64,000 nt of DNA from Candidatus Woesearchaeota archaeon (GTDB lineage: Archaea > Nanobdellota > Nanobdellia > Woesearchaeales > JAFGLG01). Below are positions 569-7,272 of this stretch, piece after piece. Positions within the stretch are counted from its first letter, which is position 1; the number at the start of each line of letters is the position of its first letter. The notes beneath the pieces were generated by a model. It did no database searches and was not told where the DNA came from. It saw only the letters and a list, made by a program, of their open reading frames with translations. Location of the stretch: the NCBI GenBank assembly GCA_016928155.1, contig JAFGLG010000002.1, positions 62,001-126,000 of the forward strand, in the 5' to 3' direction. The position numbers and the translations under genes are program-made.

Positions 569-1480
569 CTATTCTCTCCTGACAAATTCAATATTCTCGA
601 TCGCTTGCCTCAGATCAACTGCACGATTGCAGTTCTGGGATATGACTGTGTTATAGAATTTTGTCACTTCTTTGCTGACTATCACAACACCCGTCGTCAC
701 ACCAAGGTGCCTCAGAGAGATGTTGACCCGCTTGTCATTAACATCTATCTGCATGGGGATATAATCATCAAGAACAAATCCCTTCAGTTTATATCTCTCA
801 AAATTCTTCAACAGAGAGGATTTCCAATGCTCAAAGAATTTTGGACCCAGCTTCATAATGATATCAAGGTGAAAATCCAGTGCGGATCTCTCAAGGACCG
901 CCTCAATTGACTTACCTCTCTTCAATGCATCATTGTAGGTCTTATGAACAAGAAAAGTCATCTGTGGATCAAAATGGGTTATCGTCGGCCTTGATGCGAC
1001 AATCGCTCTCCTGAGCTTCACAAATCTCTTGAAATCCATCGGATAGAAAGCATAGGGGAAAGACTGGTGGAGCGACATATACCTGAAACTATTTGATTCC
1101 ACAATCATCTGCAGATGCATCTGGGTGAACTGCTTGCTGTTGTTTACAATATCTATATGCTCAGCTCCAGGACCTCGCATCTGATCAATAATGTCCGCTT
1201 GTGCAATCACCATCCGGTCGATATTGTGCTTCATGAAGTTGATAATGCGTTTGTTAAGATTGCCGACTGAATACAAAAAAGGCCTTTTAGGAGATTTCTC
1301 TATCAGACCACTGGTGATGAGGCCGTTCAGATAATCATATATCCTACCCTTTGGGATGCCAGTCTTGGCACAAACATCTTTGGCATCTAAGCCCTTGTCC
1401 CTTAGCACTTCGATAATGACAACCTGGCTGTCACTAAGGGCAAAGTTCTCCTGCAACTTTTCAAGAAGCTTATCCATCAT
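569..1480 (-). CDS. TrmB-like winged-helix transcriptional regulator
   Basis: A 303-residue protein with a TrmB-type winged helix in the first 75 residues (FALSDSQVVIIEVLRDKG, then TGIPKGRIYDYLNGLITSGL) and a long C-terminal region of unknown ligand. TrmB proteins sense sugars or other small molecules and repress or activate neighbouring genes. The ATG at 1480 was preferred over the TTG at 1492 because a TATA-like box (about 1500-1509 on the minus strand) would start the transcript close to 1480, giving a leaderless mRNA. It is divergent from the deoxyribosyltransferase-like gene, with a 14-base palindrome between them, so it may control that gene. The family call is good; the ligand is unknown. 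Confidence 0.75.
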   Translation of the reverse strand: MMDKLLEKLQENFALSDSQVVIIEVLRDKGLDAKDVCAKTGIPKGRIYDYLNGLITSGLIEKSPKRPFLYSVGNLNKRIINFMKHNIDRMVIAQADIIDQMRGPGAEHIDIVNNSKQFTQMHLQMIVESNSFRYMSLHQSFPYAFYPMDFKRFVKLRRAIVASRPTITHFDPQMTFLVHKTYNDALKRGKSIEAVLERSALDFHLDIIMKLGPKFFEHWKSSLLKNFERYKLKGFVLDDYIPMQIDVNDKRVNISLRHLGVTTGVVIVSKEVTKFYNTVISQNCNRAVDLRQAIENIEFVRRE

Positions 1481-1525
1481 AAGATATAACAAATACTTAT
1501 TTATAAATATTGTCAGAAAAACACG

Positions 1526-1539
1526 AAAAAACGTTTTTT
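1526..1539. promoter_or_regulatory. Palindrome in divergent promoter region
   Basis: A perfect 14-base palindrome, AAAAAACGTTTTTT, lies between the TATA box of the minus-strand TrmB-like gene and the TATA-like TTTAAATAAT at 1551-1560 of the plus-strand gene. Its position upstream of both TATA boxes fits a regulator site. The A and T runs could also be chance in AT-rich DNA. Confidence 0.35.
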
Positions 1540-1600
1540 AGTAGGAAATGTTTAAATAATCAACCCACTTACCTTTACGCATCAAGCGGGGTGACAATGA

Positions 1601-2485
1601 GTGGTATGCAACATAACTGAGATAGTACTCAATCAGGCTAATAGAACTGACCATATCAAGAGAATGCTCACTCTAGATGGATTAACTGATGAAAGGATCA
1701 GGGAGCATATCACCAAATACCGTTCTATGGTCCAAGAAAGGATACCTGATATTTCTGAAGAAGACCTGGAAACAGCAAACCTATACATAATTGATGGCCA
1801 CAATCCCGGCTTTGACCCATGTGAGGTACAGGCCACAATAGACAAATACAAAGGCATAACCTCATTCCTTGATGATATTCTCCAACATCTGGGGGATACT
1901 GGCTTTCTAGAGGCTGAAGATGCCTGTTATTCTGGATTGGCATTAACTGGAGTTGCAAAGGATAAGATGCCAAATCTTCTAGCTGACCATGAGAGGATAA
2001 AGGCTGCAGTTGTATCAGCTGGACTGAGAAGATATGATCCCGCTGAAGCTCCGTTTAATCCGCAGCACAAACTGGTAGGCCTTCCGCAGGAGGTTTTTGA
2101 TATTGACAATCTGATGGTCGCTGCGTCAAGATTCTTCACATTCACAAATCTGGCTGCGTCAAGCGGGGGAGGCATGGAAGAGAGGACCGCTATCGCATAC
2201 AACAAAATGCCTATCATAATCATGAAGAAGGGTGAATATACGAGCAGAATGACTACTGGAGCCAGACGAGTGCTCCTATTCGAGTATTCTGACATAAAAG
2301 CACAGTTCAATGAGCTTGTAGATTTCATCAGCGAAGCAAGATCATACAGCCCTGGAATCGGGACCTGTTCGGAGCATGGAAACACCTTGGTAGGATTCCG
2401 CGAAGGTGATCATCTTTGCTTACCTGCACATATGGAGAGGAAATTCCCATCTGTGAAGTATGATTTTTCACAATACCAGAAATGA
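1601..2485 (+). CDS. Putative nucleoside 2-deoxyribosyltransferase-like protein
   Basis: A 294-residue protein starting at GTG 1601, with a GGGGTG ribosome site at about 1588-1593; an in-frame stop just upstream rules out an earlier start. It is not confidently recognised. Residues 170-230 (vFDIDNLMVAASRFFTF, ASSGGGMEERTAIAYNKMP, then IIIMKKG) resemble the Ser-Gly-x-x-x-Glu and hydrophobic-strand pattern of the nucleoside 2-deoxyribosyltransferase/TIR-like Rossmann group, where the Glu is catalytic. It has its own promoter 98 bases ahead of the radical SAM cassette and points the same way, so it may supply or cleave a nucleoside for that cassette, but this is inference. Confidence 0.4.
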   Translation: MVCNITEIVLNQANRTDHIKRMLTLDGLTDERIREHITKYRSMVQERIPDISEEDLETANLYIIDGHNPGFDPCEVQATIDKYKGITSFLDDILQHLGDTGFLEAEDACYSGLALTGVAKDKMPNLLADHERIKAAVVSAGLRRYDPAEAPFNPQHKLVGLPQEVFDIDNLMVAASRFFTFTNLAASSGGGMEERTAIAYNKMPIIIMKKGEYTSRMTTGARRVLLFEYSDIKAQFNELVDFISEARSYSPGIGTCSEHGNTLVGFREGDHLCLPAHMERKFPSVKYDFSQYQK

Positions 2486-2542
2486 ATAGCAGAGTTTGAA
2501 TGCTTTTTTCTTAGATTTTCCTATATGGCATTCAGCTTCAGC

Positions 2543-2550
2543 TATAAAAT
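2543..2550 (+). promoter_or_regulatory. TATA box of the radical SAM/E1 cassette
   Basis: TATAAAAT sits about 36 bases before the ATG at 2583. Archaeal transcription starts about 25-27 bases after the TATA centre, so the transcript should begin near 2572-2577, only a few bases before that ATG. This is the only clear promoter before the chain of overlapping genes ending at 6797. Confidence 0.6.
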
Positions 2551-2582
2551 TTTTCCGAAACATTCAGAAAAATTCCAAGAGA

Positions 2583-2684
2583 ATGAAAAAACAAAAGGGG
2601 GACGGAAAGCTTAATCCATATTGGGCAATGTACGACAAAGAGAAAATTATGGAACAGATGAACCAAACCCACGAGGAAAAATGA
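2583..2684 (+). CDS. Possible 33-residue peptide, candidate precursor
   Basis: An open frame from ATG 2583 gives a 33-residue charged peptide beginning MKKQKGDGKLNPYWAMYDKE, with a YWAMY aromatic patch. Its TGA stop overlaps the ATG of the next gene (ATGA at 2681-2684), the same coupling used between later genes of the operon, and its ATG is the first one after the predicted transcription start. Both points favour translation. It could be the substrate of the two radical SAM proteins and the E1 enzyme downstream, or a leader peptide that only couples translation. No known precursor family is recognised, and a longer frame upstream to 2496 begins before the TATA box and is unlikely. Confidence 0.45.
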   Translation: MKKQKGDGKLNPYWAMYDKEKIMEQMNQTHEEK

Positions 2685-3127
2685 TCAATGAAACTGACAT
2701 AGCAATCATACAGATGCTACGACAGAACTCAAGAGAATCCCTGGCAAAGATGGGAAAAAAGATAGGAATACCCATGTCAACAACATATGATAAGCTCAAG
2801 AAACTCGAAGAGAACGCGATCCTGAGGCATTCCACAATCGTGGACTTCCGGCAATTAGGGTTCTCCCACAGGATACATCTCAGCCTGAAGTTTGAAAACA
2901 ATACCAAACACAGCTTCAGGCTATTTGCCTGCTCAAATCCAAATGTGAACAACATACTGGAATGCGTAGGCGAATATGATTTCATAATGGACTGTCTATT
3001 CAGGGACCTGAAAGAGATGCACGCCTTCATAGAAGACATCAAATCAGGCTTCAATCCCACAAACATGAAAAGACTGGACATCGTGGGGGACATAAAACAA
3101 GAGGGGCTGAAGTTTTGGAATGATTGA
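2681..3127 (+). CDS. Lrp/AsnC-type HTH protein
   Basis: A 148-residue protein starting at ATG 2681 after GAGG at 2673-2676. The N-terminal 60 residues carry an Lrp-like winged helix (INETDIAIIQMLRQNSRE, then GIPMSTTYDKLKKLE), followed by a ligand-binding RAM-like half with the pattern VGEYDFIMDCLFRDLKEMHAFIEDI. Lrp proteins regulate amino-acid related genes and often their own operon. Being the first full-length gene of the radical SAM/E1 cassette, it probably senses a substrate or product of that pathway. The frame upstream to 2621 is an artefact overlapping the preceding peptide. Confidence 0.75.
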   Translation: MINETDIAIIQMLRQNSRESLAKMGKKIGIPMSTTYDKLKKLEENAILRHSTIVDFRQLGFSHRIHLSLKFENNTKHSFRLFACSNPNVNNILECVGEYDFIMDCLFRDLKEMHAFIEDIKSGFNPTNMKRLDIVGDIKQEGLKFWND

Positions 3128-3156
3128 GCGACCTTGATGGTCAACAGGAAAGAAAA

Positions 3157-4326
3157 ATGCAAAAGAAGAATATCGCAAGGGCTGAGAATTTTGGTTACAC
3201 CTTGCTAGATAGAAGAAGCCTGATGCACAGATTTATCCACAAGGAAGAACCAGACCCGAATGGATATGAGGTATGGTCAGCGGATCTCTCCAATGCACCC
3301 AAGGATCTCCTATTCTCTCCAGTAAGGATGTATTTTGAAGTCACAAATATTTGCAACCTCAGATGCAAGACATGCTTCAACAATTCTGGACAGAAAAGAC
3401 CTGATGAGATGAACACTGAGCAGGTCTTGAGAACCCTTGATGGATTCAGGCGCAACAATGTGATGGACATAAGATTCACAGGTGGTGAAGTAACCTGCAG
3501 GCCGGATTGGTTCGAGATACTTAGGCATGCAAAGGACCTTGGATTCGCTGTATCAATAAACACCAATGGGGTCTACAGAAATGATGAAACACCCGAGAAT
3601 CTGGCATCCTTGGAACTGGAGCAGATCACATTAAGCGTCGACGGAGACCGACAAAGCCATGATATGATAAGAGGAGATGGGAATTATGAACGGACAGTAT
3701 CATCCATGCAGAGACTCCATGATCTGGGCGCCCATCTCAGAATAAACACAATCCTGACAAGATCATCTGCAGAAAGTATACCACATATATTGGATCTGGC
3801 CTCGAGATATGCAGAAGAGATCAACTTTTTCTATATGCGATTGATGGGAAGAGCGCTCAATCTATCCGACCAGATAGTGCCTTATGAGGACCTATGCAGA
3901 ATCGATGAAAAAATTGATGGATTAAGATCAAGATATCCAGGGCTTAATATACTGCATGGATCAAAAGTCATGGCAAGGACATCTGTGAATGCAGACCTAT
4001 CAAAGAAATTCGGACTTACAATTGGAGGACCGGAGGGTTTTACACGATTCAACATATTGCCGGATGGATCCCTGTGGCCAGGAGGATACACACCACATAT
4101 CAGACCAGAATTCATGCTTGGCAATATAATATCAGAAGGGTACGATCTCCTTAATATATGGAGACACTCTGAGAAACTGGCATCATATAGGAAAATTAGC
4201 CTGGAACTGCAGAAAACCTGTTCAGAATGTGATCAGAGAGCAACAAGATGCAACGGAGCAAGCATGGAGATGACATTCTTCAAGGAAAAAAACCCTCATA
4301 TCGGGAATCCATACTGTGCAAAATGA
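3157..4326 (+). CDS. Radical SAM protein with incomplete SPASM-like C-terminus (1)
   Basis: A 389-residue protein with the radical SAM cluster motif CNLRCKTC (Cys 66, 70, 73), the TGGE glycine motif near residue 110 and a Cys-rich tail (CSECDQRATRC, then a last Cys near the end). Radical SAM/SPASM enzymes cut SAM to a 5'-deoxyadenosyl radical and often modify peptides. The first SPASM cysteine expected after the DGSLWPG segment is missing, so the auxiliary cluster is incomplete. ATG 3157 follows AGGAAAG; a TTG at 3124 overlapping the upstream stop is the alternative. The next gene is a close paralog joined by an ATGA overlap. Confidence 0.85.
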   Translation: MQKKNIARAENFGYTLLDRRSLMHRFIHKEEPDPNGYEVWSADLSNAPKDLLFSPVRMYFEVTNICNLRCKTCFNNSGQKRPDEMNTEQVLRTLDGFRRNNVMDIRFTGGEVTCRPDWFEILRHAKDLGFAVSINTNGVYRNDETPENLASLELEQITLSVDGDRQSHDMIRGDGNYERTVSSMQRLHDLGAHLRINTILTRSSAESIPHILDLASRYAEEINFFYMRLMGRALNLSDQIVPYEDLCRIDEKIDGLRSRYPGLNILHGSKVMARTSVNADLSKKFGLTIGGPEGFTRFNILPDGSLWPGGYTPHIRPEFMLGNIISEGYDLLNIWRHSEKLASYRKISLELQKTCSECDQRATRCNGASMEMTFFKEKNPHIGNPYCAK

Positions 4327-5504
4327 GATACATCTCAAGACATGAAAGATTTGGAAGGACAGTATTCAATCCTGCAGACTTCACCCATGCTTATACCAGC
4401 GAAGAGCAGCATAGTGATCTCAAAGTCAAACATCAGGTCGAAGAGAAAAACAATCCTGTAACCGGCACTGAAGGAATACTTGAAGCCCCCATAAGAGTCT
4501 ATTATGATATCACAATGGCATGCAACCTAAGATGCAAAACATGCCTAAACAGCTCAGGAGAACCAGATAAAGATGAGCTTGACACTGAACAAAGCCTGAG
4601 AACAATAGATGGCCTAACTTCAGCAGGAGTATTTGAAGTCAGGTTGAGCGGCGGAGAGCCAACTTTCAGAGATGACTGGGGCCTTATTCTGAATCATGCA
4701 AAGGAAAGAGGGCTTATAATATCATTGAATACAAATGGCGTCTTCTCAGACAGAACACTGAAAAAACTGATAGAATTAAAACCAGATGAAACAACAGTCA
4801 GCCTTGATGGAGCAAGAGATCTTCATGATAGGATCCGTGGACCTGGAAAATATGATAGGTCCTGCGCTGCAATACAAGCCATGAACGAAGCAGGACTCAG
4901 GGTCACAATAAACTCAGTGATGACTGCCAGCACTTCAATGGCAGATATTGAGGAACTCACTGCAGTAGCCGATAGGTACTGTCAGGATATCAGTTTCTTT
5001 CATGCCAGACCATTAGGTAGAGCACAGAACATCCCTGAGGAGATATTGCAATACAAGAATCTTGATGACAAGATGGCATGGGCTGAATCGATAAGATCAA
5101 AGTATCCGCATCTCATAATACGTACCAGAAGCTCAAGCATAAAGAAGAGCGGGATATCCCCATCTATAGGATTAGGATTGGTAAGAGGAGGGAGTGATGG
5201 CTTCACACGACTGAACATAATGTCCAATGGGGACATCTATGCAGGCGGATGTGTAAGATATGTCAACGAAAATGTCAGGGAAGAACAGAAACTCGGGAAC
5301 ATAGTGGATGAATCATTCTGCATCAAGAGAGTATGGCATCATAGTGCTAGGCTCTGGGCCATAAGAGAAACGAGCAGAAGACTGCAAGAGCAATGTGATC
5401 AGTGCCCTGAATATCAAGGAAAATGCCACGGCTTCACGCCAGAGATGTACCAGTATGGCCTGGCCAATTCTGGTGATCCTTTCTGCATAATGAGGACAAA
5501 ATGA
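4323..5504 (+). CDS. Radical SAM/SPASM-like protein (2)
   Basis: A 393-residue paralog of the preceding protein, starting at the ATGA overlap 4323-4326. It has CNLRCKTC (Cys 67, 71, 74), SGGEPTFRDDWG, and a C-terminal Cys set (Cys in NGDIYAGGCVRY, CDQCPEYQGKC, and a final Cys near residue 389), so it keeps a SPASM-type auxiliary site better than its neighbour. Tandem radical SAM paralogs in one operon may modify one substrate in two steps or act as a heterodimer. An in-frame ATG at 4248 lies inside the upstream gene and is less likely. The substrate is unknown. Confidence 0.87.
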   Translation: MRYISRHERFGRTVFNPADFTHAYTSEEQHSDLKVKHQVEEKNNPVTGTEGILEAPIRVYYDITMACNLRCKTCLNSSGEPDKDELDTEQSLRTIDGLTSAGVFEVRLSGGEPTFRDDWGLILNHAKERGLIISLNTNGVFSDRTLKKLIELKPDETTVSLDGARDLHDRIRGPGKYDRSCAAIQAMNEAGLRVTINSVMTASTSMADIEELTAVADRYCQDISFFHARPLGRAQNIPEEILQYKNLDDKMAWAESIRSKYPHLIIRTRSSSIKKSGISPSIGLGLVRGGSDGFTRLNIMSNGDIYAGGCVRYVNENVREEQKLGNIVDESFCIKRVWHHSARLWAIRETSRRLQEQCDQCPEYQGKCHGFTPEMYQYGLANSGDPFCIMRTK

Positions 5505-5914
5505 GATCCGTGCTTTTCCACTGCAGGAGATATGCAACAAGAATTACACGACTCGCGAATAGACCATCCGACATCAATCCTGAAACAGTCAGAGAACATA
5601 AACAACAGATAGACAATTGCATCGTGGCCATGATCTCTATAGAGATGAGAGACAAAAATGAATACGTTGAGAAGATGGCAACAGAAATCTCCCATATGGC
5701 AAAAGAAACCAAGAATAATAGGGTAGTCATACTCCCTTTTGCACACTTATCCAATCGGTTAGCTGAACCAAAAAAAGGACTTGATTACCTTAAGAAGCTA
5801 GAAGAATCACTTTCAAAAGATCACGATGTCTCAAGAGCTCATTTCGGCTCCCATAAAGAACTGATGCTGGACCTCTATGGCCACCCTGGAAATGCAAGGT
5901 ACAGGGAGTTCTGA
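5501..5914 (+). CDS. Free-standing threonyl-tRNA synthetase editing domain
   Basis: A 137-residue protein matching along its whole length the N-terminal editing domain of archaeal threonyl-tRNA synthetase, a D-tyrosyl-tRNA deacylase-like fold that removes serine from tRNA-Thr. Seen are the MRSVLFH start, the AMISIE strand, LPFAHLSNRLAEP with His 82, and FGSHKELMLDLYGHP with Lys 119, matching the active-site His and Lys of the family. No catalytic synthetase core follows. It begins at an ATGA overlap with the second radical SAM gene, so it belongs to that pathway rather than sitting beside thrS. It may hydrolyse an aminoacyl-tRNA or aminoacyl-adenylate-like product, or serve as a trans-editing partner of ThrRS. 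Confidence 0.82.
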   Translation: MRSVLFHCRRYATRITRLANRPSDINPETVREHKQQIDNCIVAMISIEMRDKNEYVEKMATEISHMAKETKNNRVVILPFAHLSNRLAEPKKGLDYLKKLEESLSKDHDVSRAHFGSHKELMLDLYGHPGNARYREF

Positions 5915-5924
5915 CAAGGTGAAA

Positions 5925-6797
5925 ATGATGTATTATGCAGAAGAGTTCAGGCAACTGATGTCAGGCATATATCGGCAAGAGGAACTTCAAAAGATAAAAG
6001 ACGCCAGCATCTCAATATCTGGTGTGGGTGGATCAGCCGGCAGCTACCTCCTGGATATACTTGTTAGGAAAGGCTTCGAGACATTCAACCTTGCAGAACC
6101 TGACATCTATGATCTTAGGAACCTTTCAAGACAGCTTTTCGCAAATACACAAACAATTGGAAGACCAAAACTGGACATCGCCGTTGAACACGCACTAAGA
6201 ATAAACCCACAGTTGACAATAAACTGTTATGCGAGCGTAGATGCTGAGAATGCAGAAGATTTCACTAGAAGTTGCACAGTCATGGCGTATCAGGCAGAAG
6301 GATTCTCGGCCTGGGCACTGACCAGATACATGTGCTCAAGATATAAGATACCATTCGTCAATGTATCAAGAAAAAGGAAAGGAAACCTCCGTAGCGTCAT
6401 CGCAACAACAGTGTTTGATTATCGAGATGGAGAACCATTCACGGCGGATGAGCTAGAGTTCGACTCATTCGGAATCCAAGGAGACCTTGCCAGAATTGTC
6501 AAAGAGATGTTCATACAAGGAAGAATCAGGCAGGATTTATTGGACGAGTGTGACAGAGTACATAATGAATTCAAGAAAAAAAGGAGATTCACAAACCTTG
6601 GAGATCTTTACCCTGAGGTTGGTCCAATTACCGACCGATACCCTGATGATTATTTCAAGAGGTACTCTGACCCTGAAATATGCCTAATAGCGGGTGCCCT
6701 TGCAGCACGCACCATAACCGATCTTGTTGTCAATAGAATCACAGAAGTCAGGGAACTGGACATATTCTCCAGAAAGTCCGCAGGACAGAAGCAATAA
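5925..6797 (+). CDS. ThiF/MoeB/MccB-like E1 adenylating protein
   Basis: A 290-residue E1-superfamily protein. Seen are the nucleotide loop GVGGSAGS (33-40), the strand ending in Asp 60, NLSRQ (66-70) with the arginine finger, and the catalytic-type Lys 82 in RPKLD. E1 enzymes adenylate a carboxyl end of a protein or peptide. The usual Asp after the next strand is replaced by Glu 125 (YQAEGF), and there are no zinc CxxC pairs, so activity may differ from MoeB. ATG 5925 or 5928 follows AAGGTGA at 5916-5922; the earlier ATG at 5877 overlaps the editing-domain gene by 38 bases. It is the last gene of the overlapping chain. Confidence 0.8.
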   Translation: MMYYAEEFRQLMSGIYRQEELQKIKDASISISGVGGSAGSYLLDILVRKGFETFNLAEPDIYDLRNLSRQLFANTQTIGRPKLDIAVEHALRINPQLTINCYASVDAENAEDFTRSCTVMAYQAEGFSAWALTRYMCSRYKIPFVNVSRKRKGNLRSVIATTVFDYRDGEPFTADELEFDSFGIQGDLARIVKEMFIQGRIRQDLLDECDRVHNEFKKKRRFTNLGDLYPEVGPITDRYPDDYFKRYSDPEICLIAGALAARTITDLVVNRITEVRELDIFSRKSAGQKQ

Positions 6798-6828
6798 ATA
6801 TTAAAACAAAAAAGGATATATCTCACTC

Positions 6829-7272
6829 ATGACTCAACAGATACAAGGCATTGCATATAGAAAGATAGGGGATAAACACCAATTCCTTCTCTTGAAAAGG
6901 ATTCCTGAAAAAGGTGGTTTCTGGCAACCAATAAGCGGGAAAGTGGAACATAATGAAGGTCTGCAAGAAGCCCTCTTCAGGGAATTGATGGAAGAAGCTA
7001 ACATACACAAAATGGATATTCTAAGATTGGTACCTGATGTCCACAAATACAAGATATCCAGGCATTACCTAACAGATGAACCAATAGAGCCAATCACTGA
7101 GACAGTATTTGGTGTTGAGATAAAACCTGAGACAAAGATATCCATCCATGGTAACACTTCAAAAGAACATAGTCGATTCATCTGGGCTGAATTTGAAGAT
7201 GCTGTCAAGATGCTGAAATGGGAAGACAACATCAAAGCCATACATTTATTACTTAAGAAGATAAAGAATTAA
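6829..7272 (+). CDS. Nudix hydrolase
   Basis: A 147-residue protein with a Nudix box at about residues 37-59: GKVEHNEGLQEALFRELMEE followed by ANI, which keeps all the Glu ligands but has Asn where Gly is usual. Nudix enzymes hydrolyse nucleoside diphosphates linked to another group. The body resembles the dATP/diadenosine-tetraphosphate pyrophosphohydrolase branch. It lies 31 bases after the E1 gene, with AT-rich promoter-like sequence in the gap, so it may be the last member of the cassette or a separate housekeeping gene. Its stop overlaps the convergent DUF655 gene by 4 bases. The substrate is unknown. Confidence 0.85.
   Translation: MTQQIQGIAYRKIGDKHQFLLLKRIPEKGGFWQPISGKVEHNEGLQEALFRELMEEANIHKMDILRLVPDVHKYKISRHYLTDEPIEPITETVFGVEIKPETKISIHGNTSKEHSRFIWAEFEDAVKMLKWEDNIKAIHLLLKKIKN

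Follow-up and report, generated by a model that had tools for sequence, protein, structure and literature searches.

What would bring a domain related to tRNA proofreading into one operon with two radical S-adenosylmethionine (SAM) enzymes and an E1-type adenylating enzyme? The question is raised by a locus in a 64,000-nucleotide stretch of DNA (the window) from Candidatus Woesearchaeota archaeon, assembly GCA_016928155.1, contig JAFGLG010000002.1, positions 62,001 to 126,000. The cassette consists of an Lrp-type regulator, a tandem pair of radical SAM/SPASM genes, a free-standing editing domain of the threonyl-tRNA synthetase (ThrRS) type, a ThiF/E1 enzyme and a Nudix hydrolase, all on the + strand. 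The initial annotation proposed that these genes make a modified peptide, perhaps one joined to a nucleotide. We tentatively favour a tailoring operon, in which radical modification and carboxyl activation of a small peptide or amino-acid product would be accompanied by an editing-domain deacylase and by Nudix clean-up. The full gene set is a singular combination, of which only the radical SAM and Nudix genes were met again in other archaea.

Pfam and NCBIfam profile searches placed the cassette proteins in families (E values in brackets). A possible 33-codon open reading frame (ORF; 2583 to 2684) precedes the Lrp/AsnC-type regulator of 148 amino acids (2681 to 3127; PF13404, 7.1e-7; NCBIfam LysM-type regulator, 6.6e-11). 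The regulator is followed by radical SAM/SPASM protein A (389 amino acids, 3157 to 4326; PF04055, 1e-22; SPASM, 5.6e-5) and its paralogue B (393 amino acids, 4323 to 5504; PF04055, 1.8e-24; SPASM, 4e-5). Next come the archaeal ThrRS-type editing domain (137 amino acids, 5501 to 5914; PF08915, 2.1e-25), the ThiF/E1-type enzyme (290 amino acids, 5925 to 6797; PF00899, 5e-21; PRK08223, 1.9e-19) and the Nudix hydrolase (147 amino acids, 6829 to 7272; PF00293, 1.5e-12). By reading of the sequence, ATGA overlaps join the 33-codon ORF to the regulator gene (2681 to 2684), radical SAM A to B (4323 to 4326) and radical SAM B to the editing domain (5501 to 5504). The other junctions are gaps of 29 bp (regulator to A), 10 bp (editing domain to E1, with the E1 start taken at 5925) and 31 bp (E1 to Nudix). 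The cassette is thus a co-oriented, tightly packed operon, and the genes, order, overlaps and short gaps reported in the initial annotation all proved to be where it had placed them. The overlap between radical SAM B and the editing domain, together with the 10-base gap that follows, implies co-translation. The Nudix gene has its own AT-rich, TATA-like stretch roughly 25-30 bases before the ATG and no clear ribosome-binding site was seen, so it may be transcribed separately.

The radical SAM proteins belong to a small subfamily that can be followed beyond the window. Proteins A and B share 37% identity. Protein A carries CxxxCxxC at positions 66/70/73, and four further C-terminal cysteines (355, 358, 365 and 387 in A) are conserved as one set across the radical SAM proteins, a pattern that suggests one auxiliary cluster. 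The families that fit both proteins best along their whole length are those of peptide-modifying SPASM enzymes. The mycofactocin maturase MftC is the best full-length NCBIfam match of both A (9.5e-40) and B (4.6e-41), but with 136.8 and 141.1 bits they reach only about half of the curated TIGR03962 cut-off (265), only the four C-terminal cysteines are conserved, and no other Mft gene was seen. Matches to the sactipeptide enzyme StsB (1e-28 to 1e-30) extend across the radical SAM domain of both proteins. An alternative heme or d1 pathway, which would pair Lrp-like AhbA/B proteins with two radical SAM proteins, was rejected, all scores being far under their cut-offs (AhbC 77.5 against 650, AhbD 104 against 500, NirJ 107 against 515, AhbA 14 against 140).

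Relatives were sought by a pattern scan of 84,980 GTDB species, from which the best 80 loci were kept. Only two of these contain full-length members of the subfamily: L083 of an Aenigmatarchaeota genome (QMZS01000012.1), 54-56% identical to protein A (54% over 398 residues), and L084 of another Woesearchaeota genome (JAAOYA010000001.1; the same locus as L037, on a contig that by its content is G071:C5), with 34% identity. In a maximum-likelihood tree, A groups with the L083 protein (support 100/99), and A, B, L083 and L084 form one clade (99/98). Protein A is therefore closer to a protein of Aenigmatarchaeota than to its own tandem partner, which suggests horizontal transfer. Samples of 371 genomes from the window's phylum and 156 from the phylum of L083 yielded no further close members; at two weaker radical SAM loci (G512 and G503), BLAST of the surrounding 14 kb detected no relative of the E1, the editing domain or the Nudix protein.

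At both related loci the radical SAM gene is directly followed by a gene of the nucleoside diphosphate kinase (NDPK) family and then by a Nudix gene. The NDPK-family proteins match PF00334 with 62.7 bits (L083) and 35.7 bits (L084) against a cut-off of 27, and both retain the catalytic-histidine stretch NAIHR. The window Nudix protein is 47% identical to the Nudix protein of L083 and 43% identical to that of L084, and when the ORFs surrounding the 80 loci were searched by profile, this Nudix type turned up beside none of the other 78. Since a Nudix gene accompanies the radical SAM gene at all three subfamily loci, and an NDPK-family gene at two of the three, radical SAM and Nudix are a conserved pair, and part of the cassette is a real unit. 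This Nudix type is not exclusive to the pair, because it also occurs alone: it is found in 13 of 279 genomes of the phylum (the window's own genome and G071 counted), elsewhere with other neighbours. In the window genome, the sole NDPK match is a housekeeping gene adjoining EF-2. We found no publication describing an operon of radical SAM, NDPK and Nudix genes. In a separate locus (L202, 1489-3132), the same Nudix type is fused to a longer C-terminal part within a 547-amino-acid frame.

Thus, of the proposal that the cassette is a conserved system, the radical SAM and Nudix core holds in two other lineages, whereas the whole set was seen nowhere else. Only in the window did we find the E1 and editing domain together with a second radical SAM copy, the regulator and the peptide: neither the scan of GTDB species nor the two genome samples, nor viral contigs (where radical SAM matches were weak and their surroundings unread) or plasmids, contained the full cassette. 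These scans used short degenerate patterns or samples, which can miss distant members. Among the ORFs around the 80 loci we found no editing domain and one further ThiF protein. The gene of the latter, in Bathyarchaeota (L128, 13364-14101), has a radical SAM/SPASM gene some 4 kb away.

The editing domain scores 89.9 bits against PF08915 (cut-off 30.2) and is the only match to this family in the window genome. It shares the fold family of the archaeal ThrRS editing domain, a Ser-tRNA(Thr) hydrolase (PF08915, PRK14938), but it is free-standing and not linked to thrS. In an alignment with archaeal ThrRS domains, His83 and Lys121 are kept and Tyr120 and Glu134 are lost (Pyrococcus abyssi numbering). 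The P. abyssi domain tolerates removal of Tyr120 and Glu134 with its activity intact, and Lys121 is functionally crucial, positioning the catalytic water (PMC4491819). Because the residues kept include the crucial lysine and the lost ones are dispensable in P. abyssi, the editing domain is probably a working deacylase.

The ThrRS of the window genome is full-length and of the bacterial type (653 amino acids, G000:C7, L043 1231-3192), lies on another contig and covers the whole TIGR00418 model (1-561) with 713 bits, its own editing domain not having been scanned separately. A role in trans editing was therefore rejected: the genomic setting gives no sign of a ThrRS in need of the free-standing domain, and with a bacterial-type synthetase in the genome, the archaeal editing domain survives there only as this separate gene. 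Linkage to thrS, which the initial annotation had named as telling against its proposal, was accordingly not seen.

Its other refuting outcome, homologues scattered among other neighbours, did materialize for both the editing domain and the E1. PF08915 occurs in 76 of 352 genomes of the order, mostly within long, ThrRS-sized frames. We looked at the gene neighbourhoods of four short, divergent genes (L079 to L082), which resemble the cassette gene in encoding free-standing editing domains; further short frames, in G093, G241, G285, G256 and G254 and as second matches in G061 and G029, some perhaps at contig ends, fall outside this inspection. In the stretches read, none of the four adjoins thrS, a radical SAM gene or an E1 gene. 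Instead, the editing domain of L079 follows an ornithine carbamoyltransferase-like gene, and that of L080, 33% identical to the window domain over 138 residues, adjoins a DeoC-like gene. The two genes lie within 5532-6938 of L080; the neighbour encodes 291 amino acids that resemble a deoxyribose-phosphate aldolase, with no Pfam match at E values up to 0.1. In L081 (215-1179) and L082 (6199-7174), from two related genomes, a divergent editing domain of 115-118 amino acids is directly followed in identical order by a SAM-dependent methyltransferase, and this pair is possibly a separate system. L079 also contains an IMP dehydrogenase frame of 855 amino acids (751-3318) with an apparent intein-like insert.

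The E1 enzyme had been likened to MccB, and this likeness did not survive closer comparison. Its best NCBIfam matches are the uncharacterised groups PRK08223 and PRK14851, under cut-off, and its sequence match to MccB is weak (E = 0.003). The ThiF domain begins at residue 7-9, so the N-terminal peptide-recognition domain is lacking, and no CxxC zinc motif is present. When aligned to MoeB, the enzyme keeps R73 and K86 and has Glu in place of D130. Its core, a ThiF fold, is modelled well (pLDDT about 70-93 for residues 21-120), and the nearest structures by Foldseek are TcdA, which provides the closest solved folds, and structures of ThiF, PaaA, MoeB and MccB. Identity with TcdA was rejected at 45.2 bits against a cut-off of 304. 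Searches of 145 relatives and of 245 genomes from the phylum detected no more than generic ThiF matches; in the second set, the two top-scoring ones have unrelated genes around them.

The ORF at the start of the operon could supply a substrate. Its putative 33-residue product, MKKQKGDGKLNPYWAMYDKEKIMEQMNQTHEEK, is a candidate precursor, with gene-like codon use: the in-frame codon score is 0.11, within the range of neighbouring genes, against -0.48 and -0.31 in the other frames, and a score this high is reached by 4.6% of the 416 short window ORFs that are out of frame with genes. A TATA-like promoter element, ctataaaattt (2540 to 2550, + strand; read by eye), lies about 40 bases upstream and would place the transcript start shortly before the ATG. 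Codon use and this element make the ORF plausible as a gene, although unproven; no homologue of it was seen.

The closest described counterparts by gene make-up are GRC-type clusters for ribosomally synthesized and post-translationally modified peptides (RiPPs), in which the GrcA-F set brings two radical SAM enzymes together with a ThiF-like enzyme and a peptide of 39 residues (PMC12250964). The cassette shares with them an adenylating enzyme of the ThiF-like kind, a pair of radical SAM enzymes and a linked regulator, and possibly a short precursor peptide; the likeness concerns gene content. Grc clusters also have RiPP recognition element (RRE) domains, in GrcB and as the separate GrcE, and a transporter, neither of which was found here, and the cassette differs further in adding an editing domain and a Nudix gene and in being archaeal. 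Because the RRE and transporter features are missing, we do not assign it to this group; at most it works like one, and a tailoring operon by analogy with GRC-type clusters is the best-supported reading. The statement that no described system has this combination must be narrowed accordingly: GRC-type clusters already combine a short peptide, a ThiF-like enzyme and two radical SAM enzymes, and it is for the editing domain that no precedent was found. Microcin C is a more distant parallel, in that MccB and the cassette E1 share the ThiF/E1 fold beside a short peptide, here only a possible one. However, the cassette E1 has no RRE clamp, radical SAM enzymes are present, and no transporter or immunity gene of known types was seen in the cassette.

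If the tailoring operon operates as we propose, the Lrp-type protein would regulate it, and radical SAM proteins A and B would modify a small carboxyl-bearing substrate. This would most likely be a short peptide, for which the 33-residue product is the candidate, or else a metabolite derived from a peptide or amino acid. Next, the E1 would adenylate a carboxylate of the modified product and thereby drive ring closure or conjugation. The editing domain could hydrolyse an ester or aminoacyl-tRNA made, or mis-made, by the pathway, for release or self-protection, and the Nudix protein could remove a by-product linked to a nucleoside diphosphate. The gene order and coupling, the families, the retained catalytic residues and the radical SAM and Nudix recurrence are read from sequence; the substrate, the order of steps and the roles of the editing domain and the Nudix protein are inferred.

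Several observations weigh against this proposal. We found just one genome in which the E1 and editing domain accompany a radical SAM gene of the subfamily. No cassette member contains an RRE-type domain (no PqqD or RRE family, at Pfam E values up to 1), and neither a peptidase nor a transporter was seen in the cassette; the scan of the eight proteins encoded between 569 and 7272 revealed no transporter, the genes to the right having been read from translations only. In the E1, it is the catalytic Asp that is replaced by Glu, and the last 75 residues could not be modelled reliably. No counterpart of the peptide ORF was seen beside the radical SAM genes of L083 or L037, where upstream gaps are short; with NDPK and Nudix genes at those loci instead, the original substrate may have been something other than a peptide. 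SPASM-type enzymes act on non-peptides too.

A rival reading is nucleotide chemistry, which we regard as somewhat less probable than peptide tailoring. Radical SAM A, NDPK and Nudix would form a core that both makes a modified nucleotide and polices it, while in the window an amino acid or peptide would be attached to it and detached from it by the E1 and editing domain. The NDPK-family genes with their intact histidine stretch, followed by Nudix genes, fit such a core, and adenosine-containing substrates are common to editing domains and ThiF enzymes. Yet the window genome has no special NDPK, the Nudix subfamily is also solitary among varied neighbours, and the radical SAM proteins are not viperins. 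A viperin-like defence function was rejected, with an NCBIfam viperin score of 67.1 against a cut-off of 180 and with pVip matches confined to the generic radical SAM core. A nucleotide-peptide product, as first suggested, is possible, and chemistry on nucleotides would be in keeping with the NDPK and Nudix genes next to the core. The fuller version, in which a peptide or amino acid is modified by radical SAM enzymes and coupled to a nucleotide or tRNA, with a recruited ThrRS-type editing domain as release or self-protection hydrolase, seems distinctly unlikely.

Chance neighbourhood is an unlikely explanation as well, under which radical SAM and Nudix would be the sole functional unit and the editing domain and E1 unrelated genes caught in the operon of one lineage. 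The scattered relatives of both, and the failure to find a second genome with the full set, speak for it, but unrelated genes are rarely coupled as tightly as radical SAM B, the editing domain and the E1. Two further possibilities strike us as improbable. The operon could make a peptide-derived redox cofactor of the mycofactocin or PQQ type, whose retention in the cell would explain the missing transporter. The mycofactocin maturase match and the short peptide and regulator ahead of the radical SAM genes point this way; the half-cut-off scores and the absence of any other recognised mycofactocin protein from the cassette do not, and mycofactocin pathways have no E1 or editing domain. Alternatively, and with equally little probability, the editing domain, a TcdA-like tRNA-modifying E1 and the radical SAM proteins could act on tRNA or aminoacyl-tRNA in translation quality control, with no small-molecule product. 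The editing-domain family deacylates aminoacyl-tRNA, and TcdA structures are nearest to the E1, but the E1 falls far under the TcdA cut-off, the known tRNA-modifying radical SAM kinds are not SPASM-type, and the radical SAM relatives adjoin NDPK and Nudix genes rather than tRNA enzymes.

Housekeeping genes flank the block: on the left an aIF2-gamma-like gene together with a TrmB-type regulator, and on the right a series of housekeeping-type genes named from translations only. Its G+C content of 0.43 is similar to that of the flanks (0.45 and 0.46). Upstream, a 294-amino-acid protein (1601 to 2485, + strand) has no Pfam or NCBIfam match; it probably lies outside the cassette, and its two relatives in 279 genomes (L193 and L194) are away from radical SAM genes in the stretches seen. 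By eye, its C-terminal half has some likeness to nucleoside deoxyribosyltransferase-type folds. Its candidacy as a nucleoside enzyme was set aside, the AlphaFold model being poor (pLDDT 50).

Should the tailoring or nucleotide-peptide proposals be true, a small-genome archaeon of the DPANN type would possess a pathway of the RiPP-like or nucleotide-peptide kind, in a group for which few natural-product pathways are known. It would also mean that a tRNA-proofreading domain has been recruited into biosynthesis; to our knowledge, biosynthetic use of the ThrRS-type proofreading fold would be a first. Independent of mechanism, a radical SAM subfamily is tied to a Nudix protein, and usually to NDPK as well, across two archaeal phyla, and its substrate is directly testable.

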